From assembly GCF_002715865.1 (NCBI RefSeq), contig NZ_CP017696.1:2108001-2172000 (forward strand): a DNA stretch of 64,000 nt, given 5' to 3'. Below, piece by piece: positions 26,119 through 64,000 of the stretch. The stretch is from Bifidobacterium asteroides DSM 20089 (lineage in GTDB: Bacteria > Actinomycetota > Actinomycetes > Actinomycetales > Bifidobacteriaceae). The position numbers and the translations under genes are program-made. Every line of letters starts with the position of its first letter. Position 1 is the first letter of the stretch. Under the pieces are notes generated by a model. It did not search any database. It was not told where the DNA came from and saw nothing but the letters and a program-made list of their open reading frames with translations.

Positions 26119-26795
26119 GCGCAAGCCCCTCCCCCATATGGATACGCCGAATCCTTACCCGTATACGGTCCCTCCTTGGGACAGATACGCTCGTCAAATA
26201 TCTGCTTGCCATAGGTAAAAATAACCAGTGAGAAAACGCCACATACGATCCACCACAACACATTCCTGCTCTGAGGGAAATCGGATATCCTCGAATCATT
26301 GCGCCACAGCCAATATGCCATAATGCCCCCGAGGAGCATATACGGCCATGTTCGCAAGAACCATCTGAGATTCAGGGCTCCCCTGCACCAATCCCAGGAA
26401 TAGTATCCAAGAGCCACATCTTCTACCAGAGACATAGCTATTATCAACCAAGACACATCAGCCGACAACGCCACCGCCCGTGTCATCAAAACCATTAACG
26501 CGGACAGATAAAGCAGGTGTCCGCCACAAACAACCATCAACACATCCCGACTGTTCCCTAAAGGATCTTCTTCAGGTCGTCGATAAAAAAGAATCCAAAG
26601 GACGGCAAGCAAGCCGGCCAACATCAGCCACATCGCTATCCCATTCAGCGGCTGAATCTTTCCCCCGACTACACCAGGCACTATCGACACAGCTACAAGC
26701 GCTATATACAAAGACAGCCAGACCTGTACACATTTGCGTACCAGTTTTTTCAGACCATATTGCCGAAGCGCATCGCGACTCCATGAGTGTTTCAA
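26112..26795 (-). CDS. hypothetical membrane protein upstream of the recombinase
   Basis: A 227-residue protein with about six hydrophobic segments (around 22-40, 53-70, 86-105, 112-128, 146-163, 180-197) and no family I recognise. Basic residues before the first segment (LKKLVRKC) suggest a cytoplasmic N terminus. The apparent start is TTG 26795 with GGAAGG about 8 bases ahead, but that TTG lies inside the left arm of an inverted repeat, so the start is uncertain. It is AT-richer than housekeeping genes and shares a transcript with the serine recombinase, as cargo of a mobile unit would. Confidence 0.55.
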   Translation of the reverse strand: MKHSWSRDALRQYGLKKLVRKCVQVWLSLYIALVAVSIVPGVVGGKIQPLNGIAMWLMLAGLLAVLWILFYRRPEEDPLGNSRDVLMVVCGGHLLYLSALMVLMTRAVALSADVSWLIIAMSLVEDVALGYYSWDWCRGALNLRWFLRTWPYMLLGGIMAYWLWRNDSRISDFPQSRNVLWWIVCGVFSLVIFTYGKQIFDERICPKEGPYTGKDSAYPYGGGACAC

Positions 26796-44557: not shown

Positions 44558-44776
44558 GTCGAATGTTCAAGAGCTACTTGCTGCGCTTGAATCCTCTTTG
44601 GTGCATGAACTGATATGGCTCGGAACCTCTTGGGGGAGCTATTTTGGTGCATCAATCGCTGGCACTGTTGCTTGAATCTTAAGCGTCTTGGTGATGCAAG
44701 AAGTTCACTGTAACTTCCGTATTTGCTTCTCAATCGCAAATACCAGCATCTGATTCATATGACCTATAGTCTGCTG

Positions 44777-44793
44777 TATTTGCAAACGTTATA
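44777..44793 (+). promoter_or_regulatory. LacI-type operator 1 of the permease operon
   Basis: TATTTGCAAACGTTATA carries the GCAAACGTT core seen in other sites of the locus and overlaps a TATAAT -10 sequence, a position suited to repression. Confidence 0.6.
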
Positions 44794-44856
44794 CTATAAT
44801 TGCTATTTTATATCCGGCATCGGGTCAACTTTCTAATTAATAAGCGGATTTACAAA

Positions 44857-44870
44857 ATGCCATCGTTTGC
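44857..44870 (+). promoter_or_regulatory. LacI-type operator 2 of the permease operon
   Basis: ATGCCATCGTTTGC is a weaker copy of the same palindromic pattern, 77 bases after operator 1. Confidence 0.45.
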
Positions 44871-45254
44871 TTTTTCGGTATTTTCATGCATAATTAAATT
44901 GATGATGCGAAAGGGTGCCAGACAGGTTCAGACACCTGTTTAGCTGCTCCAAAAAGAAAGGTCTGATATGTAGGTAGTCGGATTCACGGATTATAGGATT
45001 CTGGCGGATGCGTATGTTCATTGGAATATGCTGGTCTAGGCTGCCGGTTTTCGTATCCAGATGACAATATCAGTATCGAAGAAGTATTGAAAATTGTGTG
45101 CACGGGGGTTCACGCGACTTTTGATTCTTGCTAATCACCCTGTGCTGTCTTTGAAGATATATTCCCTGGCAGTTGGGATTTGTTGGCTTCAGTCAGCAGT
45201 ACTTGGACGATTTAGAGACGCTGATTCATATCTCAATGAGGAGTATGGCTAAGA

Positions 45255-46109
45255 ATGATTTCAATGGCCGGGAAAGCAGTCAAGAGGTGGTGGGCGTTAT
45301 TCGCCTTGCCGACTTTTATAGCTTTCATCATAGGTTTTATAGTTCCATTCCTGATGGGAGTGTATTTAAGCTTTACCAGGTTCAGCACCGTAACCGATTC
45401 CCAGTGGGTGGGTCTGAGCAACTATGCAGCAGTCTTCAGTGACCCTGACTTTATTCATGCGCTTTGGTATACGGTGCTTTTTACCATTGTCACAACGGTT
45501 GTCGTGAATATCGCTTCTTTTGCGATTGCCTATATGCTGACGCGCGGAATTAAAGGATCCAACCTGTTCAGGTCGGTTTTTTTCATGCCTAATCTGATTG
45601 GTGGCATCGTTCTGGGCTACATTTGGCTTCTCTTGCTTAACGGAGTTCTGCAGATGTGGGGGAAGTCGATCACCTTCTCCGGAACATATGGATTCTGGGG
45701 GATGGTACTTCTTGTTTGCTGGCAGCAAATCGGCTATATGATGATTATCTACATTGCCGGCATACAGGCTTTGCCTGGCGATTTAATCGAGGCGGCCGCC
45801 GTTGATGGCGCCAACAGATGGCAGACCCTTTCCAAGGTCGTTATCCCCTTGATGATGCCGTCCATTACCGTTTGCACTTTTTTGACAGTCACCAATGGTT
45901 TCAAGATGTTCGATCAGAATCTGGCACTGACTAATGGCGCCCCATCAAATAGTTCTGAGTTGCTTGCGTTGAACATTTACAGGACCTTCTATGGCCGTGC
46001 AGGCTTTGAAGGCATCGGGCAGGCAAAGGCAGTGGTCTTCTTCGTGATTGTGGCAGTCATTGCATTGGTGCAAAACAAGATCACGACCAGCCGGGAGGTA
46101 GAGGCATGA
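45255..46109 (+). CDS. sugar ABC transporter permease (MalF-type)
   Basis: Membrane subunit of a carbohydrate ABC importer. About six hydrophobic segments are present, with the cytoplasmic EAA loop (EAAAVDGANRWQTLSKVVIP near residues 178-197) that docks on the ATPase. 284 residues, short for MalF because the large periplasmic loop is absent, as is usual in Gram-positives. GAGGAG lies upstream of ATG 45255. Its stop overlaps the next permease start by four bases (ATGA), so the two are translationally coupled. Confidence 0.87.
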   Translation: MISMAGKAVKRWWALFALPTFIAFIIGFIVPFLMGVYLSFTRFSTVTDSQWVGLSNYAAVFSDPDFIHALWYTVLFTIVTTVVVNIASFAIAYMLTRGIKGSNLFRSVFFMPNLIGGIVLGYIWLLLLNGVLQMWGKSITFSGTYGFWGMVLLVCWQQIGYMMIIYIAGIQALPGDLIEAAAVDGANRWQTLSKVVIPLMMPSITVCTFLTVTNGFKMFDQNLALTNGAPSNSSELLALNIYRTFYGRAGFEGIGQAKAVVFFVIVAVIALVQNKITTSREVEA

Positions 46110-46942
46110 ACGCACAGAGAAAGCATAATTTGTTATGGACCCTCCTGTTTGCCGCCATTTCGTTGGTCTGGATCTTCCCCATTGTTCTTGTGTTTATCAA
46201 TTCCTTTAAGCAAAAAGCCTATATCTCTAGGAATGCTTTTTCCATACCCAAGGGCAAAGCTTTTGTCGGTTTGGAGAATTATCGTACAGGAATTGAGCAG
46301 ACCAACTTATTTGTGAGTTTCGGCTGGACCATTGTGGTCACTGTGGGTGCTGTCTTACTGATTCTTGTTTGTACCTCAATGTGTGCCTGGTGGATTGTCC
46401 GAGTGAACAACTGGACGGCTAAAACGCTGTATACCCTGTTTCTGCTGAACATGATCGTACCGTTCCAAATGGTGATGTTCACACTCTCCAAACTGGCTGA
46501 CATGCTCGGGTTCAATACGCCTTGGGGATTGTGGTTCATATATTTGGGATTTGGCGCAGGCTTGGCTGTCTTCATGTTTACGGGAGTGGTAAAAGGGATT
46601 CCCAAGGAGCTTGAAGAGTCGGCCATGATCGATGGTGCCAGCGTTCCGAGGATATTCTTCAGTATCGTTGTCCCGATAATGAGACCATCCATAATTTCGG
46701 TTGCCATCCTTGAGGCCATGTGGATTTGGAATGATTTCCTTCTTCCGTATCTGACTCTTAACATAAGCAAATACAAGACGATGAGTATTGCCATCCAATA
46801 CCTCAGAGGCGGCTATGGCAGTGTGGACATGGGCGCTATGATGGCCTGCCTGGTCTTGGCCATCATTCCAATCCTTCTCTTCTATTTGCTCTGTCAGAAG
46901 TACATCATTAAGGGCGTTTTAGCTGGTGCAGTAAAGGGCTGA
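46106..46942 (+). CDS. sugar ABC transporter permease (MalG-type)
   Basis: Second membrane subunit of the importer: 278 residues, six hydrophobic segments and the EAA loop ELEESAMIDGASVPRIFFSI. GGAGG lies about 8 bases before the ATG, inside the upstream gene. No ATPase subunit (MsmK/MalK) is encoded in the locus, so a shared ATPase elsewhere in the genome probably powers it, as is common in bifidobacteria. Confidence 0.87.
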   Translation: MNAQRKHNLLWTLLFAAISLVWIFPIVLVFINSFKQKAYISRNAFSIPKGKAFVGLENYRTGIEQTNLFVSFGWTIVVTVGAVLLILVCTSMCAWWIVRVNNWTAKTLYTLFLLNMIVPFQMVMFTLSKLADMLGFNTPWGLWFIYLGFGAGLAVFMFTGVVKGIPKELEESAMIDGASVPRIFFSIVVPIMRPSIISVAILEAMWIWNDFLLPYLTLNISKYKTMSIAIQYLRGGYGSVDMGAMMACLVLAIIPILLFYLLCQKYIIKGVLAGAVKG

Positions 46943-46951
46943 CTCCTCAGA

Positions 46952-46993
46952 AAGCCAGTCTTTGCTTCCCTGTTGTATCTGCAGGGCTGGCTT
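46952..46993 (+). promoter_or_regulatory. hairpin between permease and binding-protein genes
   Basis: AAGCCAG pairs with CTGGCTT and an inner CCCTG with CAGGG, forming a two-part stem. Such hairpins in transporter operons often give partial termination or mRNA protection, so the binding protein is made in excess. That role is inferred. Confidence 0.4.
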
Positions 46994-47115
46994 GGTCGCA
47001 GTTCTCCGATCGGGGGAAGAGTACCGCGAAGACCCTTATATTCCTGCGTGCTGCTGAAACTGTAACGAAAACCAAGTCGTACCAGCGACTGAAAAAGAAA
47101 AAGATAGGAAAGAAA

Positions 47116-48456
47116 ATGCAAAAAGTTCGGCAAATCATCATCACTGCCGTCGCCGCATCCTTATGCGTAGGAATGACGACCGCATGCGGCTCCGGCGGTG
47201 GAACATCAGATAAAAATGCAGATGGCAAGGTCTATTACCTGAATAAGAAACCAGAACATGCCAAGTACTGGGAGAAACTTGCCAAGCAGTTCCAGAAGGA
47301 AACAGGCATCGAGACGAAAATTACGACGAGCCCCAATTACGATGAGACGCTTCGATCAGAGATAGCCAAGAGTGATGCCCCGACTATGTTCCAGGTGGAC
47401 GGCCCGCCCAATCTTGAACAGTGGAAAAAGTACGGTACCGATCTTTCCGACACCCAGGGGTACAAAGAGCTTACTGATAGCAAGTTGGCTCTGAAAGCTG
47501 ATGACAAGCCAGTGGCACTTCCCTTTGCCATCGATGCCTATGGCCTGATTTACAATAAGGCAATTCTGAACAAGTACTTCAAGTCATCGTGGGCGAGCGT
47601 AAAGTCTCTGTCCAAACTTAACAATTTTGAAGCGCTAAAGACCGTCGCCGACGAGGTTCAGGAGCATAAGGATGACCTTGGCGTCAAGGGAGCCTTTACT
47701 TCAGCAGGCATGGACGATACATCGGGATACAGATTTAATTATCATCTGCCCAGTGGTCCTCTTTTCTATGAGTACAAAGACAACAACTGGGATATGAACA
47801 CGACCGTTCCTGCGGTGAAAGGAACCTACGCACCGAATATGAAGAAGATCTGGGATCTGTACATTCATGATTCGACCGTTCCCGTGTCGGCCATTTCGGG
47901 TAAATCCATGTCAGACGCCACTTCTGAGTTTGCTCTTGGAGAGGCATTATTCCTTCAGAGTGGCACCTGGTCCTATACCGACATCTCTGGCCAGAGCGTC
48001 GAGGATTCAGATATCGGTGTTTTACCTATCTATCTTGATGTTAAAGGAGAAGAAGATCAGGGTCTGAATACTGTTACCAGCAATTATTGGGTTGTGAACT
48101 CCAAGGCTCCCAAAGCCAACCAAAAAGCAACTAAGAAATTCATTGATTGGCTGATTACCTCTGACGCCGCCAGGGCTTCCATTTCGCAGGACATGGGCTT
48201 CCTCACGCCTTTCAAGACGTTCTCTGGCAAGAAGTACGCTCCCAAGAACCCGATTTATACCGAATATACGAAGCTGAAAAAGGAAGGAAAATACGACGTG
48301 TATGGTGTCTGTGCAGTGACGCCTTCCCATCAATGGCAGAAGGATCTGGGAAACGCGATGCTGAACTATGCACAAGGAACAGGTGACTGGGATGCCGTTC
48401 AAAAGGTGTTCAGCGACAATTGGGCCAAGGAATATAACCTGGTTTACAAGCAGTAA
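47116..48456 (+). CDS. sugar ABC transporter extracellular solute-binding lipoprotein
   Basis: Binding protein of the same importer. A lipoprotein signal (MQKVRQIIITAVAASLCVGM) ends in the lipobox TTAC with Cys24, followed by a GSGGGTS linker. The rest is a family 1 sugar-binding fold of about 420 residues (AKQFQKETGIETK near the start, DAPTMFQVDGPPN, ALPFAIDAYGLIYN). AGGAAAG precedes ATG 47116. The sugar is not determined by sequence; the alpha-glucosidases around it suggest maltose or isomaltose-type oligosaccharides. Confidence 0.87.
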   Translation: MQKVRQIIITAVAASLCVGMTTACGSGGGTSDKNADGKVYYLNKKPEHAKYWEKLAKQFQKETGIETKITTSPNYDETLRSEIAKSDAPTMFQVDGPPNLEQWKKYGTDLSDTQGYKELTDSKLALKADDKPVALPFAIDAYGLIYNKAILNKYFKSSWASVKSLSKLNNFEALKTVADEVQEHKDDLGVKGAFTSAGMDDTSGYRFNYHLPSGPLFYEYKDNNWDMNTTVPAVKGTYAPNMKKIWDLYIHDSTVPVSAISGKSMSDATSEFALGEALFLQSGTWSYTDISGQSVEDSDIGVLPIYLDVKGEEDQGLNTVTSNYWVVNSKAPKANQKATKKFIDWLITSDAARASISQDMGFLTPFKTFSGKKYAPKNPIYTEYTKLKKEGKYDVYGVCAVTPSHQWQKDLGNAMLNYAQGTGDWDAVQKVFSDNWAKEYNLVYKQ

Positions 48457-48622
48457 GGCATGAAAAAAAGACGGTGCTGCGTAAAACCTTACCGGGCTGC
48501 GTAGCACCATTGAGCCTGTCTGTGCGTCCCTAGTCTTCTTCAGTGGTATGGTCAGCTGCCAATTATGGCTGGTCGTGCAGTTCGGCTAGTGCGTGGTTAA
48601 AATCTGACAGGCGAGGATTTTA

Positions 48623-48659
48623 AACGGTGCCTGCCCAATCAGTTTGGGCAGGCACCGTT
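48623..48659. terminator. bidirectional terminator between binding-protein gene and GH31 gene
   Basis: A perfect 16-bp stem (48623-48638 against 48644-48659) with a 5-base loop separates two convergent genes. GTTTATAT follows on the plus strand and TTTAAAAT on the minus strand. Confidence 0.85.
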
Positions 48660-48683
48660 CGTTTATATAGGTTTGGATGATGA

Positions 48684-51185
48684 TTACCTGGCCCGGGTCA
48701 ACACCTCGGTAAGGGCGCTGAGCACGGCTTGCGGTATCACCGGGCTGGCTCCAGTTTCTTGGTCGCACCCCGAGGCCTTGTCGACTTCGCCTACCGACAT
48801 GAGCGAGGCCATGGAACCGCCCTTTTCGTCTTTGATGATGGAGTAGGCTTCCTCTAAGGTGGTGTATGCGATTTGGGCATCACGCAGTACGGCGAATGAC
48901 TCGCTCACCACCGATTTGGAGGCTATGATGATGGGCCTGTCCTTGGAGGGAAGAATGCGTATGGTTGATGATGCAGGAATCTTCTTTACAGAGATGGACA
49001 GTGTCTCGGTTGCCTCATCGTAGTCGATTGTAGCTGCGCGGTCATTTCCGTCAACTATCACCCTGCATGTGCCTTTGGTGACGCCCCTGAATCTGATGGT
49101 CCAGTTGCGTTCAGTCGGCAACGCTGCAAGATTGCCCTTGGCGCCTGCTATTCTCAGCTCTGTCAATTTGCCGTCTTCATTCGACCATAACGTAGTAATT
49201 GATGTAGATGCGGCATCGGATGCTTGAGGACTTTCACATCCAGAATCTTCAAGGATGGTGAAGTGGTTACTGGCACCCGGAAAGACCAGGATATCTAGAT
49301 CAACCGGATTGTCGGTGTCGTTGATGTTGCCGGAGCCTGTCTGCAGTTTTTGCATAGGGATGATAGCCCCCGCTTTAGCAAAGACCGGTATGCGGTCCAG
49401 CCCGCGCCAAACCTGCATATATCGGCCTTGCTCCGACTTGGCCTCATACCTTGCACCATCAAAGAAATCAAACCATATTCCTTGGGGGAACCAGACATCA
49501 GTGTGGGCTTTCTGCACATCATGGCTCTGTGGCTCAGTGATGGGTGAGACCATGAGTTCGCTGCCGAACATATACTGATTCCTGACCTTGTAAGCGGCGG
49601 AGGTTTCTGGATTATCCCAATACATTGGCTCCACGATGGGCAGCCCTTCAATCGCAGCCCTCCAATTCATGGTGTACAGATAAGGAATCAGACGGTGCCT
49701 AAGCCGCAAGGCCCGTACCATCGACTGCATGATCTCAGGGTGGTAATTCCAAGGCTCCTTGCTGTTGAAACTGGAATCGGTTGAATGAAGCCGGTTGATG
49801 GGGCTGAATACCCCAAGCTGATACCAACGAGCTTCTAGTTCCTCATCACGGTAACCGAACATGTGCCCGCCGATATCGTGGCTCCACCATCCATATCCGA
49901 TGTTGCTGGCCGTTGCAGTGAAGTATGGCTGGAAATTGAGCGATTTCCACGAAATGACCGTGTCGCCAGAGAAACCGATCGGATATCTGTGCGAACCGGG
50001 CCCCGCATATCTTGAAAAGGTCAGAGCTCTGGTTCCTCTGCGTGAAGAGTCAAGGTAATGCAGATAATTGAGAATCCATAGAGGATCCAAACCTTTCTGT
50101 CTGGTTACCCCGCCCTGTTGCCAGTCGAGCCACCAAAAATCGACGCCCTCATCTTCGAGGTCATGATGCAAATCCAGATAAGCATGGACGAAATCAGGAT
50201 TGGTCAAGTCGAAATCAATGGTCTTCTCGTTGTTGGGATCCAGCCCCATCGACTTGGCTGCCTTGGCGTAACCCTGCTCGAAAGGCCTGATGCCATCCCT
50301 TGGGTGTACGTTCAAGGTTGTCCGGATGTTTCGTTTATGGAGCTCTTTCAGGAAATCTGCATGGTCGGGGAAGAGCTCTTGATTCCATGTGTACCCGGTC
50401 CAACCGGATCCGTACTTGGTATCAATATCCGTCAGGTGCCAGTCCATGTCGAGCACTCCGACTGCGAGCGGGATGCCCTCGGCGTTGAACCGATCCATAA
50501 GTCTGAGGTATTCATCCGCCGAGTATGGATAATATCTACTCCACCAATTGCCAAGAGTGAAACGCGGTATTAGTGGTGTCGGGCCGCATAGCCGGTAGAA
50601 ATCCTGGACGGCCTCCTTGTATCTATGCCCATATCCGAATATGTACAGGTCGACATCGGAGTTGGCCCTTGGACGGATTGTGCCGAATGGGTTCGTTGTG
50701 GATTGCGATGAGTGCGTACTCGGAATAACTTCATTGCTCCTGGAATCGTCGAGTATGGCCCATCCGTCGAAGGACGCGACTCCTGGATCGAGCGGCGCCT
50801 CGCCATTGACTCCATCAAGTGTTCGTCTGGTGCCGAGTAGGTTGCCTTCCTGAATGTCCTGATAATGCCAGGTGTTGTTGTGCGTGATAGGAACATTTTT
50901 GACAGTTACGCTCAGTCCCTCCTTGCTGAAAGGCTTTTTGTCATAAACCAGATGCATCTTGGCGGTATCCACAATCAGCCTATCGTCCTCGACGGTGTAA
51001 GTGTAATGAGGCTTGGCGTCCCAATTGCGGTTTACTACTATTTGTGTCATCTCATCTTCGAAGTTACCGGAATCAGACCATTCAAGTCGTAATAGGGAAT
51101 CAGAAATGATGCCTATCCGCCAATGCTGTCCGGTGATAGTCGAGTCGGGATCCATCAAGGGATGGAAGGACGAACGACGAGACAT
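48684..51185 (-). CDS. GH31 alpha-glycosidase
   Basis: A family 31 hydrolase of 833 residues: an N-terminal galactose-mutarotase-like domain, the (beta/alpha)8 core starting about 210 (FTLGNWWSRYYPYS), and C-terminal beta domains. The nucleophile region reads FWWLDWQQG, with Asp354 as candidate in place of the more usual WLDMNEP. FSGDTVISW with Asp408 is the candidate acid/base. No signal peptide, so it acts inside the cell. AAAGGAGC precedes ATG 51185. The WLDWQQ variant points to a subfamily whose substrate I cannot name; alpha-glucosides are favoured by the neighbours. Confidence 0.83.
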   Translation of the reverse strand: MSRRSSFHPLMDPDSTITGQHWRIGIISDSLLRLEWSDSGNFEDEMTQIVVNRNWDAKPHYTYTVEDDRLIVDTAKMHLVYDKKPFSKEGLSVTVKNVPITHNNTWHYQDIQEGNLLGTRRTLDGVNGEAPLDPGVASFDGWAILDDSRSNEVIPSTHSSQSTTNPFGTIRPRANSDVDLYIFGYGHRYKEAVQDFYRLCGPTPLIPRFTLGNWWSRYYPYSADEYLRLMDRFNAEGIPLAVGVLDMDWHLTDIDTKYGSGWTGYTWNQELFPDHADFLKELHKRNIRTTLNVHPRDGIRPFEQGYAKAAKSMGLDPNNEKTIDFDLTNPDFVHAYLDLHHDLEDEGVDFWWLDWQQGGVTRQKGLDPLWILNYLHYLDSSRRGTRALTFSRYAGPGSHRYPIGFSGDTVISWKSLNFQPYFTATASNIGYGWWSHDIGGHMFGYRDEELEARWYQLGVFSPINRLHSTDSSFNSKEPWNYHPEIMQSMVRALRLRHRLIPYLYTMNWRAAIEGLPIVEPMYWDNPETSAAYKVRNQYMFGSELMVSPITEPQSHDVQKAHTDVWFPQGIWFDFFDGARYEAKSEQGRYMQVWRGLDRIPVFAKAGAIIPMQKLQTGSGNINDTDNPVDLDILVFPGASNHFTILEDSGCESPQASDAASTSITTLWSNEDGKLTELRIAGAKGNLAALPTERNWTIRFRGVTKGTCRVIVDGNDRAATIDYDEATETLSISVKKIPASSTIRILPSKDRPIIIASKSVVSESFAVLRDAQIAYTTLEEAYSIIKDEKGGSMASLMSVGEVDKASGCDQETGASPVIPQAVLSALTEVLTRAR

Positions 51186-51349
51186 GCAATGCTCCTTTGC
51201 TCAGCAGTTTCTTTATATCTGTCATTTTCCAGCATAATATGCAAACATATTCATAGACTAATAAAGCTATAAATACGCTTAATTAGTAAATATAATGCTA
51301 ACGTTTGCTAACTCGAGTATATTCCAATATCAGGAATGGACGTTGATTG
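51186..51349 (-). promoter_or_regulatory. GH31 promoter region with two LacI-type sites
   Basis: The 164 bases between the lacI-type gene and GH31 contain ATGCTAACGTTTGC (51295-51308) and ATATGCAAACATAT (51237-51250). Both share the GCAAACGTT-type palindrome of the locus and lie upstream of the GH31 start. Confidence 0.6.
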
Positions 51350-52369
51350 TCATGTGCGCTTTTTACAGACTGCTGTCGTTTCACGAAGTAAGAGGCGAAC
51401 GGGCGGTTTTTCGTACGGTTCTTCCAATGGATCACCTTCAATCAGCGCCATCGTCTTTTTGGCCGCAGACTGTCCGTTGATGAAAGGGTCTTGGTGCAGT
51501 GTCGATAGGCCGATCTCGTCAGCGTAAAGACTGTCATCGAAACCAAGTATGGAAAAATCATCGGGAACTTTGATGCCATATTGTCTTAGACGGAAGAGCA
51601 CCGGTATGGCAGATCGGTCACTTTCGAAGAAAGCCGCTGTGCACGACCTAGCATCAGAGGTGAGACGGCCCAGAATAGTACTGGTCAGATCCTGCCCAGG
51701 GTCGACATCAAGCACGTAGGGGTTGATTGATTCGCTACTGGATTTGCAGGATCTGAGGAAGGCCTTTTTCCTGGCTTCAGAGCTGAAATGTAGGTTTTTT
51801 GACTCGTTAAGTACTGTGACGTAGGCGATGTGACGATGGCCGAGGGATATAAGGTGCTCTACGCCTGCTTTTACCGCTTTGGCATCATCAATGGAAACAG
51901 TTGCGTTAAACCCCTGCTCGGGTGGCGTATTGATGCCGATGACAGGAACATTCATCTCGCTCAGTTTGGCCACTTCTTCTCCGACAATGTTGAAAGAGCA
52001 GACGATGACGGCATCGACATTGCGACGCATGGGGAGTTCCTCGAAGAAAGCCTTGCGGGATTCCCCGCTGTTGATCCGGTAAATGGATATGTCATAGCCT
52101 GCGGTGTGGAATACGGAATCCAGACCAGCAAGAATTTGCGAATTGAACCACTCGGTTGTCGGATCGTTGGTGAGCACCGCGATTCTTAGGGATTGTCCTG
52201 ATTTCAGGGCTGTTGCGGATCGTGATATACGAAAATTCAAGGCGTGGGCAGCTTGCATGACTTTGGCCTTGGTGCCCTTGGCTACCAGATCTGGTCTTGC
52301 AAACGTTCTAGAAACAGTGGATACGGAGACCCCCGCTGCATCTGCCACATTCTGTATTTTGACAGTCAT
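51350..52369 (-). CDS. LacI family transcriptional regulator
   Basis: A sugar-responsive repressor. MTVKIQNVADAAGVSVSTVSRTF is a standard LacI helix-turn-helix with the hinge following, and about 280 residues of periplasmic-binding-protein fold (LRIAVLTNDPTTEWF, FSILGFDDSLYADE) bind the inducer. ATG 52369 is chosen because GAGG lies 7 bases ahead; upstream in-frame starts add residues before the HTH. It is placed between GH31 and a YesL-like gene and probably controls the whole locus through the nearby palindromes, perhaps including its own gene. Confidence 0.87.
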   Translation of the reverse strand: MTVKIQNVADAAGVSVSTVSRTFARPDLVAKGTKAKVMQAAHALNFRISRSATALKSGQSLRIAVLTNDPTTEWFNSQILAGLDSVFHTAGYDISIYRINSGESRKAFFEELPMRRNVDAVIVCSFNIVGEEVAKLSEMNVPVIGINTPPEQGFNATVSIDDAKAVKAGVEHLISLGHRHIAYVTVLNESKNLHFSSEARKKAFLRSCKSSSESINPYVLDVDPGQDLTSTILGRLTSDARSCTAAFFESDRSAIPVLFRLRQYGIKVPDDFSILGFDDSLYADEIGLSTLHQDPFINGQSAAKKTMALIEGDPLEEPYEKPPVRLLLRETTAVCKKRT

Positions 52370-52521
52370 ATTGTGCCTCATTTTGTGCGCCTGCAAAAAT
52401 TGATACAAGTAAATGTTAGTTCACGACCTGCGTGGTAGAGCAACGATCCATGGAAAAGGGTTGTTTATCGGGTTGCTGCCATGGGCTCGACGGATTGAAT
52501 GTTGCTACAAACGAGGATGTA

Positions 52522-52540
52522 ATATGAAAACGTTGCATAT
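52522..52540 (+). promoter_or_regulatory. LacI-type operator before the YesL-like gene
   Basis: ATATGAAAACGTTGCATAT has the AAACGTT core and near-palindromic ends, and lies 40 bases before the gene start at 52580, in the right place for regulation of this gene by the adjacent LacI protein. Confidence 0.55.
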
Positions 52541-52579
52541 CCTGATATCTGCATTGAGTATGACCAGGCAAGGAGTGGG

Positions 52580-53182
52580 ATGGAGTTCCTGTCACCTGAT
52601 TCAAAATTGATGCGAGGTCTGTCTGATCTGGTCGATGCCATATGGATTAATGTCCTGATGTTGATAACCTGTATTCCAATAATCACCATTGGTGCAGCTT
52701 TGACTGCGGCTCAGGTTGCCTCACGACGCTCGTTGCAAGGCCAGGGAAAGGTTACGGTCAATTACTTCAGAGCTTTCAAGGAGAATTTTTTCCAATCCAC
52801 CCTTTTATGGTTCGTTTTCGGCCCGCTTCTGGCGGTTCTGGTTGCATCTTGGATATTTCTGCAGATCACACCCCTGCTCATTCCCAAATTCGGATTAAGT
52901 ATCGTCTGGCTTGTCGCCTTTGATTGGGTCTGGCCCTTGCAGGCGAGGTTCACTAATTCTGTGGGGCGTACCCTGCTTAATTCCTTGGTTTTCGGGTTTG
53001 CCTACCTAGGCGAAACCGCAGCCATGGTGTTGATTGATGTTGTTTATTTTGGTCTCGTGGCAGCTTCCTGGTTCTTCATGCCCCAAGGTTTGATCCTGCT
53101 CCTGATCCTGGGATTTGGTGTGATCACGATGCTTCATGTCCCGCTTACCGAGAAGGTGTTCGTCAAGTATGTGCAGGCTTAG
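52580..53182 (+). CDS. DUF624 (YesL-like) membrane protein
   Basis: A 200-residue membrane protein with four to five hydrophobic segments and the YesL start (MEFLSPDSKLMRGLSDLVDA; residues 20-40 are the first segment). YesL-type proteins accompany sugar ABC importers and LacI regulators in many Gram-positive loci; their biochemical role is unknown. AAGGAG lies 5 bases ahead of ATG 52580. An operator-like palindrome sits just upstream, tying it to the same regulon. Confidence 0.75.
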   Translation: MEFLSPDSKLMRGLSDLVDAIWINVLMLITCIPIITIGAALTAAQVASRRSLQGQGKVTVNYFRAFKENFFQSTLLWFVFGPLLAVLVASWIFLQITPLLIPKFGLSIVWLVAFDWVWPLQARFTNSVGRTLLNSLVFGFAYLGETAAMVLIDVVYFGLVAASWFFMPQGLILLLILGFGVITMLHVPLTEKVFVKYVQA

Positions 53183-53308
53183 CCGGCCGGGGCGCTTCAG
53201 CCTTACCAGAGGGTGCGTGGAGAGCGACAAGACCGATATGCAGAGCAAGATACCAGCATAAAATGCTGGAGGTTCTTGAAAATGAGGGCAACCTTGTCGA
53301 AGCGATGT

Positions 53309-53346
53309 GCCGCCACTCAGATGAATTCCGGTCAATTGGTGGCGGC
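53309..53346 (+). terminator. hairpin downstream of the YesL-like gene
   Basis: GCCGCCAC pairs with GTGGCGGC across a 22-base loop and is followed by TCTTCTCTC. It sits between convergent genes (YesL-like + and GH13 -) and may terminate both. Confidence 0.4.
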
Positions 53347-53371
53347 TCTTCTCTCAATATAGGGGTCTCGC

Positions 53372-55132
53372 TTAGGCTTTAACTAGCCAAACACAGGTAT
53401 CGGTTGGAATTTTACCTCCGGCAAGCGGTTCCGAGGAGATGACAACGCGACCTTCAGGGGCGTCCACAGGTTGATGTGTAAAATTGGTGATGCAGACCAG
53501 ATGACCAGGCTTGTTGTCAAGAAGGGCCGAGCGCGTATAGGTCAACACCCCGTGGTTTTGATTAATGGATTCTATGGTCTTGTTGCCTGTGGCCGTCAGA
53601 AGCTGAGCCCTCAGTATGATTGCCGTACGGTATAGATTGAGCATTGAGCTCTTATCGTGACATTCGACATCAACCGCGAATTTCTTGAACCATAGAGGCT
53701 GTGGAAGATGAGGATCGTCGGCAATGGTGCCATCAGCCTTGGTTTTGGGAGAAAAGCCGAATGAGGCACCCTGCCCAAAGTTCCTGTTCCAATCAGCTGG
53801 CTCCGGTGTATCCTCGGAATTCCAAGGCAGGGGAACCCTGCATCCATCTCGTCCTTTTTCAGTAAATTCCCTACTTGATCTGAAGGCGGTTGGATCCTCC
53901 AGACGGTCCCATGGGATGTCAGCAACTTCAAAGAGGCCAAGCTCCTCTCCCTGATAAATGTAAAGGGATCCTGGCAGAGCCGCCTCCATAAGGAAACCTG
54001 CGCGTGCGCGACGATTACCGACAGCGCGGTTTTCCTTATAAGTCTGACCGTTTCGGAGCAGCCAGTCCTTTCCCAGTTGCTGGGTATCCAGATCCTCCGC
54101 TTGAGGAAGCGCATACCGTGTGGCGGAACGGATAATGTCGTGGTTGTTCATGACCCATGTAGTCGTGGATCCGGATTCCTTGGCCTCCTGCAGGCCCTCT
54201 TTGATTGCCGCTGAAAACGCCTGGCAATTCCAATCGGCCTTGGCGAATTCAAAGTTGAAGACCTGTCCCAATTCGTCCTCAGAGGCATAAAGGTGCTGGT
54301 GCTCCGGCACAACCCAAGCTTCTCCAACGGCGAAGCGATGAGGTTCGTACTCGTTGAACACCTGCCGCCATTCTTTATATATGTCATGCACTTCAGGCCT
54401 GTCCCAGAGCGGGTGCTCGTAATTGTGACTGGCTGATTGCTGCTGCACAGGCCAAGCGTCGAGTTCGGACAGAGGTTTACTGTCGAGGTCCTTGGCCAGC
54501 CCATGCGCAACATCGATACGGAATCCGTCGGCGCCATGGTCGGACCAGAAGCGGAAGATATCCTTGAACTCCTCGTGAACATCGCGGTTCTTCCAATTGA
54601 GATCAGGCTGCTCCTTGGCGAAGAGGTGCAGGTACCATTCCCCGTCTTCAACCTGCTCCCAGGCGGGGCCGCCAAAAATGGACATCCAGTTGTTGGGAGG
54701 GAGCTCCCCGTTTTTGCCTCGTCCTTTGCGGAATATATACCGATCGCGCTCAGCTGATCCAGGGCGGGCTTTTAGTGCCTGCCGGAACCACTTATGTTTG
54801 TTGGAAGTGTGGTTTGGCACGATATCCACGATGATTTTGAGGCCGGCCTGGTGTGCCGCTTCAACCATGGCATCGAAATCCTCCAAGGTTCCCAGCCTCG
54901 GATCGACGTTTTCATAATCAATGACATCATAGCCGCCGTCTGCCAGATCCGACGGGTAGAAAGGTGAGAGCCAGATGGCATCGATGCCCAGCTCCTGCAG
55001 GTAGCCAATTTTTTCAGTCACACCACTGATGTTTCCGATTCCGTCCCCGTCAACGTCCTTGAAACTACGAGGGTAAACCTGGTACACAACCGCTTGCTTC
55101 CACCAGTCCTCGCTCAAGTTGTTCGTTGTCAT
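53372..55132 (-). CDS. GH13 alpha-glucosidase (AglB/maltase-type)
   Basis: A cytoplasmic GH13 exo-glucosidase of about 586 residues, acting on maltose, sucrose or isomaltose-type sugars. It opens WWKQAVVYQVYPRSF. Catalytic candidates are Asp207 in GFRIDVAHG, Glu271 in VGEAWVV and Asp332 in MNNHDIIR. I start at ATG 55132 because GGAAGG lies 9 bases ahead; the ATG at 55141 would abut it. Two LacI-type palindromes lie upstream. It shares about 45% of its motifs with the GH13 at 8880 by eye, but has a different C-terminal domain, so it is a separate paralogue. Confidence 0.88.
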   Translation of the reverse strand: MTTNNLSEDWWKQAVVYQVYPRSFKDVDGDGIGNISGVTEKIGYLQELGIDAIWLSPFYPSDLADGGYDVIDYENVDPRLGTLEDFDAMVEAAHQAGLKIIVDIVPNHTSNKHKWFRQALKARPGSAERDRYIFRKGRGKNGELPPNNWMSIFGGPAWEQVEDGEWYLHLFAKEQPDLNWKNRDVHEEFKDIFRFWSDHGADGFRIDVAHGLAKDLDSKPLSELDAWPVQQQSASHNYEHPLWDRPEVHDIYKEWRQVFNEYEPHRFAVGEAWVVPEHQHLYASEDELGQVFNFEFAKADWNCQAFSAAIKEGLQEAKESGSTTTWVMNNHDIIRSATRYALPQAEDLDTQQLGKDWLLRNGQTYKENRAVGNRRARAGFLMEAALPGSLYIYQGEELGLFEVADIPWDRLEDPTAFRSSREFTEKGRDGCRVPLPWNSEDTPEPADWNRNFGQGASFGFSPKTKADGTIADDPHLPQPLWFKKFAVDVECHDKSSMLNLYRTAIILRAQLLTATGNKTIESINQNHGVLTYTRSALLDNKPGHLVCITNFTHQPVDAPEGRVVISSEPLAGGKIPTDTCVWLVKA

Positions 55133-58325: not shown

Positions 58326-59330
58326 ATGGCTGAGAATGAATGGCTGAGCAAGGACTATTACAAGGTCCTTGGTGTCTCCAAGGACGCCAGCGAAGCGGAG
58401 ATCACCAAGGCCTACCGCAAGCTTGCCCGCAAATACCATCCCGATCTCAATAAGACCAAGGAGGCTGAGGAGAAGTTCAAGGAGATCTCCGAGGCCTACG
58501 ACGTGCTCAGCAACAAGGAGCAGCGCCAGAAGTATGATGCCATCCGCCAGTTCGGCATGGGGGGAGCCCGGTTCGCCGGCGGCTCCGGCCAGGGTGGCTT
58601 CAACACCGATGCATTCTCGGACATCTTCGGCTCCATGTTCGGCGGGGCCGGGGCGCCAGGAGGCACCCGCATCCGTTTCGGCGATGGTTCCGGACAGCCG
58701 GACTTCGCTGACATCTTCTCCTCCTTCGGTGGGGGTGCCGGCGGTGGCGGTCGGACCGCTTACCAGGAGGCCAGGCCCAGGCCCGTCAAGGGCGAGGATC
58801 GCAATTCGAAAATCGGCCTGTCCTTCCGTCAGGCGGTCAAGGGGGCTACGGTCTCCCTGAGTGTGGGCGGCAAGCGTTTCAAGACGCATATCCCCGCCGG
58901 GGTTCGCAACGGTCAGCGGATCAGGTTGGCCGGCAAGGGTCGGCCTGGCAGGGACGGGGGCGCCAATGGCGACCTCTACCTACAGATCAGCGTCCAGCCC
59001 AGCCAGCGGTTCGCCATGAAGGACAGGGATCTGGTCATGACCCTGCCGGTGACGGTAGCTGAGGCGGCCCTGGGGGCCAAGGTCCAGGCCCGGGACATCG
59101 ACGACCAGGTCGTCACCTTCAGGATCCCGGCCGGCTCCTCCAGCGGCGACGAGATCCGCATCGCCGGCAAGGGGGTTCAGGACAGGCGCGGCAAGGGCGA
59201 CCTGGTGGGGCGGCTTGAGATCCGCATGCCTGGTCGGCTGGGCATGGCCCAGAAGAAGGCCATGCGTGACTTTGCCAAGTCCAGTGGCGACTTCGACGAG
59301 CGGATCGCCGGGGAGCGCATGAAGATATGA
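58326..59330 (+). CDS. dnaJ: DnaJ family co-chaperone without zinc fingers
   Basis: J-domain protein of 334 residues. The J domain ([23 protein letters not shown] in KYHPDLNK) is followed by a long G/F-rich linker (about 75-150) and the two C-terminal beta-domains. The CxxCxGxG cysteine repeats of standard DnaJ are absent, as in CbpA/DnaJ2-type proteins. GGAGA precedes ATG 58326. It stimulates DnaK ATPase. The missing zinc domain should reduce its ability to hold unfolded proteins by itself. Confidence 0.9.
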
Positions 59331-59382
59331 CGATCCGGATGCCGGATCAAGTCGGAGCGAACAGCGGGAAGGAGTGATGACC

Positions 59383-59913
59383 ATGGTCAGGGTGGATCCC
59401 GAGACCAGGCGGATCTATCTGGCCTGCGCTCGCGGCCTGGTGGCCGGGCGCATCAGCCTGGATGCTGCCGACGATGCCGGCTTGGACATCGAGCTGCCGG
59501 TCTTCAGTGTCGGCCAGGTCGGGCAGTTGGCCAACATCCATCCGCAGACCCTGCGCCAATACGACCGGCTGGGTCTGATTGTGCCGGAACGTACCGAGGG
59601 GGGTGCGCGCCGTTACTCCCTGCGGGATCTGGACCGGCTGGGCCAGGCCCAGCATCTGAGCCAGGACGAGTCCATCAACCTGGCTGGCGTGACCAGGATC
59701 CTGGCCCTGGCCGAGGAGAATCGCCAGCTGAGGCGCCAGCTGCGCCGCTCCCACCAGTCACAGGGGTCCAGTATGTTCGCAGCCGCCGCCGATGGCCGGG
59801 TCGTCGAGGTCAGGCGGTCCAGCAGGGCCCGGCTCTGGCGGCAGGACACGACGCATGACGAGGCCGATCCGACTGATTCCAAATCGCTGATCGTCTGGAG
59901 CGTACGCTCCTGA
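59383..59913 (+). CDS. hspR: HspR, MerR-type heat-shock repressor
   Basis: Represses the dnaK operon by binding HAIR. The MerR helix-turn-helix FSVGQVGQLANIHPQTLRQY with the wing GLIVPERTEGGARRYS is intact, then a helix ending in a basic tail (RQLRRSHQS). ATG 59383 is chosen because AAGGAG lies 8 bases ahead; GTG 59374 and ATG 59377 are alternatives. About 176 residues. Being last in its own target operon gives negative feedback, as known in Streptomyces and Mycobacterium. Confidence 0.88.
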   Translation: MVRVDPETRRIYLACARGLVAGRISLDAADDAGLDIELPVFSVGQVGQLANIHPQTLRQYDRLGLIVPERTEGGARRYSLRDLDRLGQAQHLSQDESINLAGVTRILALAEENRQLRRQLRRSHQSQGSSMFAAAADGRVVEVRRSSRARLWRQDTTHDEADPTDSKSLIVWSVRS

Positions 59914-60100
59914 AATGGGTGCGGGGCCTGTGCTATGGTGTACAGGTTGGCCGCTCGCCCAAGAGCTGCGGCTGACTGTCGCCTGAATGCTTTGAGTACG
60001 GGGAAACCGCTTGCGCGAAATTCGTCATTCTCTGCTTTGCACGCGGCCTGCGAACTGTCGACCGACAGTGTCGTTTTCTTCCCTGTTGTGAAAGGTCATT

Positions 60101-60547
60101 GTGACTGCTTCATCCATGCCTGATTCCAATTCGTCCAATTCCGGCCAGTCTGCCGTAGAACCTATGACTTTTGACCAGCTGGGGGTGCCTGAGCCCTTGG
60201 TTCGCGTCCTGCGCAAGGACGGCAAGACCAGGGCCTTCCCCATCCAGCGGGATACCCTGCCTGATGCCCTGGCTGGCCGTGACATTCTGGGACGGGGCCG
60301 GACCGGTTCCGGCAAGACCCTGGCTTTCAGCATCCCTCTGGTGGCTCAACTGGCTGCCTGCGAAGGAGGACGGACCCGCCATGGCCGCGGTGGTGCCGCC
60401 GGTTCAGACAGTCTGCCCCGCCCGCGCGGTCTTGTCCTGGCTCCCACCCGCGAGCTGGCCAATCAGATCGACGTGGCAAAGCGCCGGAAGCGATTGATTT
60501 TCGGGCGCTCGCAGCGTTGCTCAAGGCCGATTGTGTCGAGTTGTTGA
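60101..60547 (+). pseudogene. DEAD-box RNA helicase, cut after motif Ia
   Basis: N-terminal piece of a DEAD-box helicase. It starts at GTG 60101 with AAAGG about 7 bases ahead. MTFDQLGVPEPLVRVL and FPIQRDTLP form the Q-motif region, GRGRTGSGKTLAF is motif I (Walker A), and LVLAPTRELANQID is motif Ia. After about residue 124 the sequence abruptly stops resembling the family and ends at a stop codon at 60547; motif II (DEAD) and the whole second domain are missing. The loss coincides with the truncation of the oppositely oriented YhgE gene. It is therefore a fragment, or a join artefact. Confidence 0.8.
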
Positions 60548-61673
60548 TGCCGTTGGCCGCCGAGACTGTGCTGGTTGTCGTCGCGCCGAGATTGGTGTTG
60601 AGATCGGTGATGGTTTTGATGGAATCGCCGAGGCTCGCGTTTTGTGCCTTGAGCTTGGCGATTGCGTCCGTGCTGCCGGGCACGCCCGCGGTTTCCAGAC
60701 GATTGATGAGGCTGGCGGTGTCGCTGTTGATCTGCTGGGCGGAGGAAAGTGCCGAGCTCGCGTCGCCGTTGGCTTTGGTCAGCCCGGCCGCAATGGAATT
60801 GATGGCGATGTTGGATTGGGAACTGGCCTGTGAAAGCAGGCTTGAGCTCTGGTCGAGCGTGCTGCCGGCGCTGCTGGTGAAATCGTTCAGCGTGTTCTGT
60901 GTGCTGGTGATTGCGGCGGACGCGTCACTCAGCTTTTTGGCCGTTTGTGTATTGGCTTTTTGCGTTCTGTCGAGCGTCCCTTGTGCTGCTTTGGTTTTGT
61001 CGGGAATGCCGTTCAGCGTCGCGGTGAGCTCGGCGATGCCACCGCGTATGTCGCTGACGGAGCGTTGCGCCTTGTCGAGATCGGCCAGAACGTCGGTCGT
61101 GGTGGTATCGGCTTTGGCGTTGATGTCGTCGTCGGTTTGGTTGATGGTGCTCGAAACGACCTTGCTTACCGTGGAGACAAAGGTTTCGTTGACCTGGCTG
61201 TCGACGGTCGAAGCACCGGTGTCGGTCATGCGGCTGGCCAGTGCGTTCGCTTTTTCGTTGACGTAATATTCGAGCGTGGGGCGCGTGCTGCGTCCTTCGA
61301 TGACCCCGGCCACCCGGTCACTGAAGTTCTTGGGGATGACGATGGCAGCGTAGCTTTTCCCGGATTCCACGCGCTGCATGGCCTCGGACTTGTCGGCGAA
61401 TTTCCAACCCAGCTGGTTGTTGCCTTTGAGCTGTTTGACGATCTGATCGCCCATGTTCATCTTGCCGATGGTCTGAGAATCGGTGCCGCGGTCGTTGTTG
61501 GCTACGATCACTTCGATGCTGCTGGTGTTGCCGTAAGGGTTCCAGAAACCGGCGATATTGAACCACGCGTAAAGCGGTGGAATGAAGATGATTCCGAACA
61601 GGACGACCCACGCTGCCGGCACACGCAACAGGCGCACGATATCGCGTCGTACGATGGCCATCACGTTGTTCAT
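60327..61673 (-). pseudogene. YhgE/Pip-family membrane protein, C-terminally cut
   Basis: N-terminal piece of a YhgE/Pip (phage-infection-protein-like, ABC-2-type) membrane protein. From ATG 61673: a first membrane segment (VVLFGIIFIPPLYAWFNIAG, 20-39), then a long extracytoplasmic domain, with NNDRGTDSQ and SYAAIVIPKNFSDRVAGVI as typical motifs, followed by a serine/threonine/alanine-rich coiled region (about 180-390). Family sequence ends near SARKSIASGALP (about 60473-60490); the residues after it are the antisense of the helicase gene. The C-terminal membrane domain that normally completes it is missing. AAGGAG lies 7 bases before the ATG. Confidence 0.8.
60472..60484. other. breakpoint joining two truncated genes
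   Basis: The DEAD-box gene (plus strand) loses family identity after ATCGAC at 60467-60472, and the YhgE gene (minus strand) after its GCTTTGCCA, whose bases lie at 60476-60484. Two unrelated genes broken at the same 10-15 bases imply a join. Confidence 0.7.
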
Positions 61674-62032
61674 AGAGAGGCTCCTTCAAGCTTATTCGTC
61701 GGATGAAATCAAAAACTTCCGACTAGCCCGTCGGGTTCCTGTTTATATTCATTATTATTCCTGCTGTATCACCATATTTGACCCCCTAAATCTTTTGTTC
61801 AAAGCGAATACTTTGTTTATTGGTCAGAAGAGGGCCGTCGCGGCGCCAGGGGGATATCGAGCTTGTGAACGACAGGCATGGCAAGATCGGCATTGTCTGG
61901 TTCGAGCATAGAGCCGACAAGGTGTCAGACCGATTTCAAAGACGTGGGCGAGCCCGGATTCGGGTACGACCACCGCGTTTGGTAGCCTTATAAGAATTGT
62001 AAGAGGACTTGCTCGGGTAAGGGGAGTGGGCT
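61674..62032. other. 359-base divergent region
   Basis: AT-rich region between the divergent YhgE-type and CmpB-type genes, carrying both promoters. AGGGGAG at 62017-62023 is the ribosome site of the next gene. No gene or repeat recognised. Confidence 0.5.
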
Positions 62033-63379
62033 ATGGGAACTGCTCCCGATAATGAAACTTCAAAGAAGTCGGCGGTTTCGCAAACTCTGCGTGACTCGGC
62101 GCAGACTTCGGCAAACGCCCTTGGCAAGGCCGCCAGCAGTGCAGCGGACGCCGTCGTGCATTCGGCCACACGGGCCGCGGAAGGTGTCGGCGATGCCTCG
62201 CGCAGCCTCGCAAACCATGCATCCCAGCACCTGACTCTGATCGGCCATATCTATGGTGTTCTGGTGCTGCTGGTTGGCTTGGTCGGCGTGCCGTACGTCG
62301 GCTATGAGATTTTCGACGGCATCCAGAAGTTCGTTACCGGACGGCTTCACGCCGACCCACTTGATCTGACATTTTTGCTTACTTGTGCGCAGGCGGTTGT
62401 CGCGTTTGCCAACGCCGTCGCCCTGATCGTATTCGGTGTCATGCTGCTGCGCGACATGCGTCGGCACGCGGCACGATGGGCGTACATGATGATGGCCGTG
62501 ACTTTCGTTCAGGGCATGCTGGCGTTGGCATTGCAGGGCCTTGGCCTTGGCGTGGGGCTTTCCATGATCCAGATTGCCATCCTAGTGGCGCTCGCCATCG
62601 CTCTCGATCCGGCGCTGATCGGCGAACGTGCTGTGCGACGCAGGCTCAAGCGGATGGATGAGCACGACGAATACATCGAGGCGAAGGGTGCGGGTATGCT
62701 CGGCCGCGACCCGAGCGGCAAAGGCTACGTCGAGCTCAATGTTTTCAATGTGTTCTGGCTTTTTGTGGTGGGTTGCGTCGGTGGGCTCATCGTCGAGGAG
62801 ATCTATCACCTCATCTTTTACAACGTTTGGCAGGACCGTGCAGGGCTTATCTGGGGACCGTTCTCGCCGATTTACGGGTTCGGGGTCGTGGTGCTGACGA
62901 TGTGCCTGAACCGTCTCTGGCATGCCAACGCCGTCCTGGTTTTCTTTGCCAGTGCGGTTATCGGCGGGACGTTCGAAGCGTTTGTCAGCTGGTTCATGCA
63001 GGTGGCCTTCGGCATTATCGCCTGGAATTATTCAAACGACTGGCTGCCGCTTTTCGGCGGGCGGACCAGTGGCAAATACATGGTTTTCTGGGGGCTGGCG
63101 GGCCTGATCTGGCTGCGTGAGCTGCTGCCACGCATCCTCAAATTCATCAACCTCATCCCGTGGAAGTGGCGTTACGCACTGACCGCTGTCGCGCTGGTGC
63201 TGATGCTCATCGACATCGTCGTCACCCTGATGGCGCTGGATTGCTGGTACGGCCGCGTTGCCGGCCTGCCGCAGACTTCACCGGTCGCCCGCTTCTTTGG
63301 GGAGCATTTTGACAATGCGGTGATGAAACAACGTTTCCAGACCATGAGCATCAATCCTCAGTGGTCTGGCCGTGGGTGA
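62033..63379 (+). CDS. putative ABC transporter permease, CmpB/DUF1113 family membrane protein
   Basis: A 448-residue membrane protein. The first about 60 residues are alanine-rich, charged and repetitive (SQTLRDSAQTSANALGKAAS), perhaps amphipathic. Two clusters of segments follow: about 70-90, 110-140 and 150-195, then after residue 230 the family-like core FWLFVVGCVGGLIVEEIYHL, WGPFSPIYGFG and FGRRTSGKY-like region, typical of the CmpB family (COG4905). Despite the family name, transport activity has not been shown. ATG 62033 is preceded by AGGGGAG. It may be affected by the nearby rearrangement, but the gene is complete. Confidence 0.7.
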   Translation: MGTAPDNETSKKSAVSQTLRDSAQTSANALGKAASSAADAVVHSATRAAEGVGDASRSLANHASQHLTLIGHIYGVLVLLVGLVGVPYVGYEIFDGIQKFVTGRLHADPLDLTFLLTCAQAVVAFANAVALIVFGVMLLRDMRRHAARWAYMMMAVTFVQGMLALALQGLGLGVGLSMIQIAILVALAIALDPALIGERAVRRRLKRMDEHDEYIEAKGAGMLGRDPSGKGYVELNVFNVFWLFVVGCVGGLIVEEIYHLIFYNVWQDRAGLIWGPFSPIYGFGVVVLTMCLNRLWHANAVLVFFASAVIGGTFEAFVSWFMQVAFGIIAWNYSNDWLPLFGGRTSGKYMVFWGLAGLIWLRELLPRILKFINLIPWKWRYALTAVALVLMLIDIVVTLMALDCWYGRVAGLPQTSPVARFFGEHFDNAVMKQRFQTMSINPQWSGRG

Positions 63380-63406
63380 AAACAGCCTATTCCCGGTTCT
63401 GTTTCG

Positions 63407-63504
63407 ACTTTTCATAGTATAACTAGAAAAATCCAGTTTATTGTGTGACTTTTTAATTTATACTATGAAAAGTTGAATAATTTGATATGCTTTTAATAGT
63501 ATAA
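63407..63504 (+). repeat. inverted and direct repeats upstream of the AAA ATPase gene
   Basis: ACTTTTCATAGTATAA (63407-63422) is perfectly inverted at 63458-63473. A third, near-identical copy CTTTTAATAGTATAA (63490-63504) is in direct orientation, 21 bases before the ATPase start. AT-rich with three copies, it suggests an operator array or a hairpin in the leader. Confidence 0.65.
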
Positions 63505-63524
63505 ATGGAAAAGTTGGTGGTGTA

Positions 63525-64000
63525 ATGGTGCGTGATGAAAACAGCAAAGGTGTCGGCATCGAAATACCTAATGCCAAAAAGCTTAATAAAATGTCTGTCG
63601 GCAGGGCCGCCTTGCTTGATAGTTCAACATTGAAGTTGAAGCCGCGACCCGATTATCTTGCCATGTTGGTCAAGTTTCTCGATAATGAGGCTATCAAAGT
63701 CATATCCGGCATGCGCCGCTGTGGGAAATCAAGTCTGCTTATCATGCTTGCGGAGTATTTGCGCGAAATGGGTATTCCGCAAAAAAATATTGTGATGGCT
63801 AATTTCGAGTCTTCTGAGTTCTTTGATGTGACGGATTATCGGAGTTTGACAGCATGGCTATACAAGCGGATGGATGAACCGGAGCATTATTATGTGCTGC
63901 TTGACGAGGTGCAGTTGGTGGATCACTGGGAACGTGCCATCAATGCCCTGCGCGTGGACGCCGATGTGGACATTTATCTGACTGGGTCGAATGCTTATCT
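63525..64000 (+). CDS. AAA+ ATPase (AAA_14/DUF4143 type), partial at window end
   Basis: The first 158 codons of a gene running out of the window. MVRDENSKGVGIE starts it, SGMRRCGKSSLL is the Walker A, NFESSEFFDV and YYVLLDEVQLVDHWE contain the Walker B (LLLDEVQ-like), and DVDIYLTGSNAY is sensor 1. This arrangement is typical of the COG1373 ATPases, which usually run to about 400-450 residues with a C-terminal DUF4143. Their role is unclear; many sit in variable regions. No strong Shine-Dalgarno (only GGTGGTG) precedes ATG 63525. The lower GC than most of the window is notable. Confidence 0.75.
   Translation, partial: MVRDENSKGVGIEIPNAKKLNKMSVGRAALLDSSTLKLKPRPDYLAMLVKFLDNEAIKVISGMRRCGKSSLLIMLAEYLREMGIPQKNIVMANFESSEFFDVTDYRSLTAWLYKRMDEPEHYYVLLDEVQLVDHWERAINALRVDADVDIYLTGSNAY

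Follow-up and report, generated by a model that had tools for sequence, protein, structure and literature searches.

Do a DEAD-box helicase gene and a yhgE/pip-type gene that end at the same place on opposite strands mark a real event in the chromosome of Bifidobacterium asteroides DSM 20089, and if so, of what kind? The stretch of DNA analysed here, referred to as the window, covers 64,000 nucleotides (C1:2108001-2172000) of a genome assembled as one contig (C1) of 2,190,368 bp. In the preliminary description, the shared break was attributed to an inversion, a deletion or another rearrangement, or to a chimeric contig join. The comparisons reported herein lead to a different answer, to which a probability of about 0.8 is assigned: a real foreign insertion, in which 13,875 bp from the clade of Bifidobacterium sp. 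ESL0682, ESL0784 and B. commune lie between two 1,581-bp copies of host DNA, each comprising the end of dnaJ, hspR and the start of the helicase gene.

The break point, the direct repeat and the empty site

The helicase remnant on the plus strand and the yhgE remnant on the minus strand both end at about 60,473/60,474 in the window. The common cut on opposite strands is real in the assembly; its earlier placement at 60478 is replaced by about 60,473, as given by the alignments. The helicase remnant (60101..60547, plus strand) tracks the host's full helicase as far as 60,473 and then continues for 24 unrelated codons, and in the profile search its best stretch spanned just positions 84-101 of the matched helicase profiles. 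Alignments of the left side to the 12 nearest congeners stop at 60,471-60,476. On the other strand, the yhgE/pip-type gene (60327..61673, minus strand; TIGR03061 above cut-off) is cut at codon 400. Its open reading frame (ORF) retains family sequence from 61,673 to about 60,474-60,475, and its last 48 codons are the antisense of the host helicase. Alignments of this gene to ESL0682, the metagenome-assembled genome (MAG) B-bin1, ESL0763 and B. commune (72-81% nucleotide identity) start at 60,475, and those to ESL0784 and B. aemilianum start further in, at 60,505 and 60,580, respectively. In the six relatives checked, the ORF encodes 859-968 aa, against the 400 aa left here. Since identity to the 12 nearest congeners amounts to 89-96% on the left side, across the repeat described below, the double truncation is not a matter of chance. 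A single insertion with direct duplication accounts for both truncations, in line with the earlier view that one event lay behind them. The two remnants should be read as pieces left by this event next to a complete helicase gene, and not as decaying host genes.

A search of the genome with positions 59,800-61,200 returned four places, namely the window itself, the contig start and two places matching the left half only. The sequence to the left of the break belongs to a direct repeat of 1,581 bp, of which copy 1 (58893..60473, plus strand) is 99.75% identical to copy 2, located outside the window at C1:14989-16569, equivalent to C1:2182349-2183927. The copies are separated by 13,875 bp, giving a repeat period of 15,456 bp. 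Copy 1 takes in the last 438 bp of an intact 334-aa ORF (58326..59330, plus strand), a putative dnaJ named from its translation (J domain; position after dnaK and grpE) rather than from a profile match. It also contains the first of two complete hspR copies (59374..59913, plus strand; NCBIfam HeatShock_HspR above cut-off), both of which encode 179 aa, the second at L005:15470-16009. For B. asteroides PRL2011, the available passages of PMC9004370 give no copy number for a second hspR. Repeat copy 2 opens inside dnaJ and runs on into a full-length helicase of 554 aa (C1:16197-17861) downstream of the insert; this helicase has matches to CshA-type and further DEAD-box profiles (the best over residues 24-395, below curated cut-offs). 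Altogether, dnaJ and the helicase gene are each retained by the host as one whole copy, and hspR as two.

The two repeat copies differ by four mismatches, at window positions 59362, 59368, 59369 and 59817. Copy 1 carries alleles found in congeners at all four sites, and copy 2 does so at three, with a private base at one. Three of the differences are packed into 8 bp directly before hspR (window 59362-59369, corresponding to L005:15458-15465), and the contig starts within two bases of this cluster, for which a conversion tract or an assembly effect is possible. One repeat copy may derive from another strain or have recombined with it, or may have changed later; the allele pattern does not decide the insertion route.

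The ancestral state of the site was examined by joining the host flanks and aligning them to 26 congener loci. The joined flanks aligned through both break points in 12 loci, those of the 12 nearest congeners, at 88-93% identity. Among the remaining 14, four gave no match and ten gave partial, diverged matches only, three of which (L069-L071) cross the place of junction 1 alone. The proposed comparison with related genomes was informative: the nearest relatives carry an uninterrupted site and the right side of the break is foreign, which bears out the suggestion that the two sides were not neighbours originally.

Both joints can be read at base level. At junction 1 (60472..60474, recurring at C1:~1112), the host sequence ..GATCGACG is followed by TGGCAAAGCG.., with the host matching up to GACG and ESL0682, the nearest foreign relative, matching from GGCAAAGCG; the intervening T agrees with neither the host nor the five relatives compared. 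At junction 2, foreign sequence ending in ..GGCGTAA is followed by host CCCGCCGGGG... At both joints, at most about 2-3 bp are common to the host and foreign sides. An inverted 9-mer common to both joint areas was set aside, about 0.05 such matches being expected by chance by our own estimate.

Content and origin of the inserted DNA

The foreign insert occupies 60474..64000 in the window and goes on for 10,348 bp past the window end, to C1:2182348. Its ends cut through yhgE on the left and nrdE on the right. Between and including these ends, the order from left to right is yhgE (minus strand), a CmpB-type membrane protein, an AAA/DUF4143 ATPase, a LacI regulator, an alpha/beta hydrolase, an MFS transporter, a second alpha/beta hydrolase, a GDSL-type esterase, NrdF (minus strand), a short-chain dehydrogenase (SDR; minus strand) and the C-terminal ~194 residues of NrdE (minus strand). 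The CmpB-type gene (62033..63379, plus strand) is open over its full length and encodes a membrane protein with a "putative ABC transporter" domain (PF06541, E 5e-33). The AAA/DUF4143 ATPase gene (63525..64000, plus strand) crosses the window end and encodes 438 aa, with PF13635 in the C-terminal 279 aa. Before it, at 63403-63514, lies an A+T-rich inverted repeat whose own opposite strand matched at ~75% over 67-75 bp, and which is perhaps an operator or a terminator.

From about the AAA gene to the GDSL esterase, the GC content is 47-48%, compared with 55-62% at the ends of the insert. Given this low GC content, the AAA-to-GDSL part was probably island DNA in the donor chromosome already. The stretch from the first hydrolase to the GDSL esterase has matches in 7 of 189 family genomes, the genome itself included, the other six at 63-83% nucleotide identity. 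Low GC also occurs elsewhere in the window. A block at 44001-54000 (47-51%), left of dnaK, encodes two transporter permeases, a solute-binding protein, a GH31 enzyme, a LacI regulator, a DUF624 protein and an alpha-amylase family enzyme, and looks like a carbohydrate island. A further low-GC region, at 23678-26795, holds a resolvase-family gene next to an ABC transporter gene; in the latter, the profile match of the membrane part is confined to the end of the profile.

Judged by gene order and sequence similarity, the insert is a chromosome slice from the lineage of Bifidobacterium sp. ESL0682, ESL0784 and B. commune. The gene-order comparison covered 8 of the 12 named loci found. Five of these eight carry yhgE, CmpB and nrdE in the order and orientation of the insert, two more carry yhgE-CmpB-AAA(-nrdF) and one carries yhgE only; the LacI regulator, the two hydrolases, the MFS transporter, the GDSL esterase and the SDR had no match in the eight. 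Across these loci, the best protein identities were 84% (ESL0682), 81% (MAG B-bin1), 78% (ESL0784) and 72% (B. commune) for YhgE; 87% (B-bin1), 86% (ESL0784) and 81% (B. commune) for CmpB; 87% (B-bin1) and 72% (ESL0763) for the AAA protein; 57-66% for NrdF in ESL0784, B-bin1 and B. commune (partial); and 98% (ESL0682 and ESL0784) and 97% (B. commune) for the NrdE part.

At the nucleotide level, the nrdE fragment shares 94-95% identity with ESL0682 and ESL0784 and 84% with the host's own copy; for the 19 congener loci compared, the figure is 81-87%. A 26-row tree places the insert's nrdE with B. commune, B. bohemicum, ESL0682 and ESL0784 (support 96/99) and the host's own nrdE with its congeners (support 100/96). 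The host's own gene is an open frame of 748 codons at C1:1534890-1537133 and is different from that of the insert. Furthermore, the insert was searched in four pieces against 26 other genomes of the genus. Matches comprised nrdE at 74-87%, short pieces of nrdF, one 47-bp SDR piece and diverged yhgE pieces at 65-73%, reaching 88% in one 33-bp piece; beyond these, the 26 genomes gave no match to the insert, and the pieces at window 61,674-64,000 and L008:1-2340 matched none. The donor is not among the genomes compared, and the named loci are its relatives.

An inversion or deletion inside the native genome, as entertained in the preliminary description, would also truncate two genes at one point. 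The lost parts were sought in the chromosome, those of yhgE and nrdE with the ESL0682 relative as a stand-in for the true donor. The missing part of the helicase does exist, in the intact gene at C1:16197-17861. The remainder of the donor-type yhgE, queried with ESL0682, was not found; the best own-genome match, 69% over about 490 bp, falls in the host's own yhgE-type region (near C1:2062-2067 kb, identified from DNA matches alone). Likewise, the upstream part of the donor-type nrdE was not found in the genome, the sole match being the host's own copy at 81%. In addition, the nrdE fragment at the opposite end is likewise foreign, and a complete helicase gene lies beyond the insert. A native inversion or deletion is hence scarcely credible, and a foreign insertion, accompanied by direct duplication of 1,581 bp of the host, takes its place. 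The suggestion that both genes being full-length in the strain would speak against a rearrangement fails, since the start of the helicase is duplicated.

Entry by means of a mobile element such as an ICE, a prophage or a transposon is very improbable. The definite length of the insert and the direct repeats at its ends would suit such an element, but the ends cut housekeeping-type genes. Moreover, no integrase, transposase, relaxase or phage family was detected among the 11 insert genes and fragments (ten searched with Pfam, the nrdE part and yhgE with NCBIfam, in a set that covers the larger ORFs), and no tRNA gene was found in the window or the rest of the insert. To our knowledge, transposases and integrases do not make target duplications of 1.58 kb.

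The contig ends and the possibility of an artefact

The ends of the contig overlap: C1:1-23039 equals C1:2167360-2190368 at 99.69% identity, with one mismatch and 59 gap openings. Window positions 59360..64000 fall in this overlap and are the same DNA as C1:1-4640. The terminal overlap and the 1,581-bp direct repeat are two independent duplications. A second alignment of the overlap gave 76 differing columns, confined to two zones with none between them. The start copy has 32 of these at C1:502-4363 (window 59,862-63,723), and the other 44 begin at C1:2183574, within the contig's final 6.8 kb. The errors are placed at the outer ends of the contig because reading frames are broken in the start copy in the first zone and in the end copy in the second. 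The overlap would fit an untrimmed circular long-read contig. The true circle would then have about 2,167,360 bp (C1:4641 corresponds to C1:2172001), or 2,151,904 bp minus the insert and one repeat copy. Users of this assembly should be aware that ~23 kb, including junction 1 and its genes, occur twice in the file.

An assembly or library artefact, in which contaminant or chimeric foreign DNA was joined into the host contig, is quite unlikely. In its favour, the contig begins within a repeat copy, two bases from the three-difference cluster, its ends are untrimmed and error-rich, and the evidence rests on one assembly. The length of the insert also falls in the size range of long-read library fragments. 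However, an artefact would take two chimeric joins sharing both the host neighbourhood and the foreign neighbourhood. The assembly contains two versions of junction 1, one in the window and one in the error-rich start of the contig; their errors are different and the break is identical, which makes a single chimeric read an improbable source. For junction 2 there are likewise two copies, in identical stretches; these may share their underlying reads or the reads used for polishing, and to that extent are not independent. The chimeric join raised earlier is disfavoured by a pair of matching junctions, the first of which exists in two copies that differ in their errors.

The size of the circle is within 60 bp of that of PRL2011, which counts against an artefact only if PRL2011 is identical or nearly identical to the window's strain. 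PRL2011 was reported at 2,167,301 bp from a 454 and fosmid Sanger assembly (PMC3447821), and a table in PMC5540593 has "LMG 10735 (PRL2011)" at 2,167,304 bp; PMC10092428 lists both DSM 20089 and PRL2011. No publication describing a PacBio-based complete genome of DSM 20089 was found. As far as the accessible part of PMC3447821 goes, the insert, with its two alpha/beta hydrolases and GDSL-type esterase, could have a counterpart in S5 of that source.

Routes of insertion and known systems

For the foreign insertion, non-homologous capture during replication or break repair, with use of the sister chromosome, is tentatively preferred as the route, at slightly less than even odds. One end would have been joined at helicase codon 124, the foreign fragment would then have acted as filler or template, and synthesis or joining would have restarted 1.58 kb upstream on the sister chromosome, yielding insertion and duplication together. 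Because the change adds DNA and leaves both dnaJ-hspR (left) and hspR-helicase (right) whole, selection need not remove the insert.

The same insert may have arrived by another route, which we consider conceivable though rather doubtful. Foreign DNA would have been ligated to a host-type fragment of 1.58 kb, which may stem from another strain of the species, and the resulting circle would have integrated through one RecA crossover (Campbell type). An insert flanked by near-identical direct repeats (1,581 bp, 99.75%) is the exact product of a single crossover, and linear DNA in E. coli is described as circularising by ligation and integrating by single crossover (PMC3240628, in the part consulted). 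The four repeat differences, three with alleles known in congeners, fit a conspecific fragment. The congener alleles of copy 2 are explained at least as well by a chimeric fragment or circle with a conspecific 1.58-kb piece. Against this route, two unrelated fragments must first be ligated within one cell, and the genes of the insert include no replicon, integrase or vector gene. Plasmid and phage searches (near-mode) with the 3.5 kb of the insert inside the window gave no match. With the right 10.35 kb, 22 plasmids were matched, all of the 10 listed in the nrdE part, and one phage record, also in the nrdE part; no circular donor bearing the host segment turned up.

Whichever route applies, the locus offers an example of DNA transfer between two Bifidobacterium lineages with readable joints, and shows that foreign DNA can join the neighbourhood of dnaJ-hspR and the helicase without breaking those genes. 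RecA exchange between the repeats would be expected to release a circle of 15,456 bp, which would return the site to its ancestral state. A broader generalisation, that bifidobacteria of this group can acquire large arbitrary chromosome slices from one another additively, by homology-independent sister-chromosome capture with insertion-duplication, is unlikely. If it were true, the 15,456-bp repeat unit could excise or amplify via RecA and act as a passive, enzyme-free genomic island.

The event is of a known kind, probably illegitimate recombination adding foreign DNA, and three described systems invite comparison, each as far as the consulted parts of its source describe it. In homology-facilitated illegitimate recombination (HFIR; PMC3240628), foreign DNA is likewise added through at least one joint without homology, and no mobile-element enzyme is needed. 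HFIR, however, combines one homologous end with one illegitimate joint, whereas here neither foreign/host joint is homologous and a host segment is duplicated; with at most about 2-3 bp shared at both joints, HFIR was set aside as a description of this locus. Campbell-type integration of a circularised linear fragment (PMC3240628) resembles the present case in placing an insert between direct repeats of the homologous segment, and differs in that the putative circle here would have to combine foreign DNA with 1.58 kb of host-type sequence. Finally, in transformation-generated merodiploidy of S. pneumoniae by interchromatid integration (PMC3784515), a donor fragment bridges sister chromosomes and gives rise to a tandem duplication with a novel junction, as proposed here; pairing in that system proceeds via recipient repeats, whereas in B. 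asteroides 13.9 kb of foreign filler is bounded by joints without homology.
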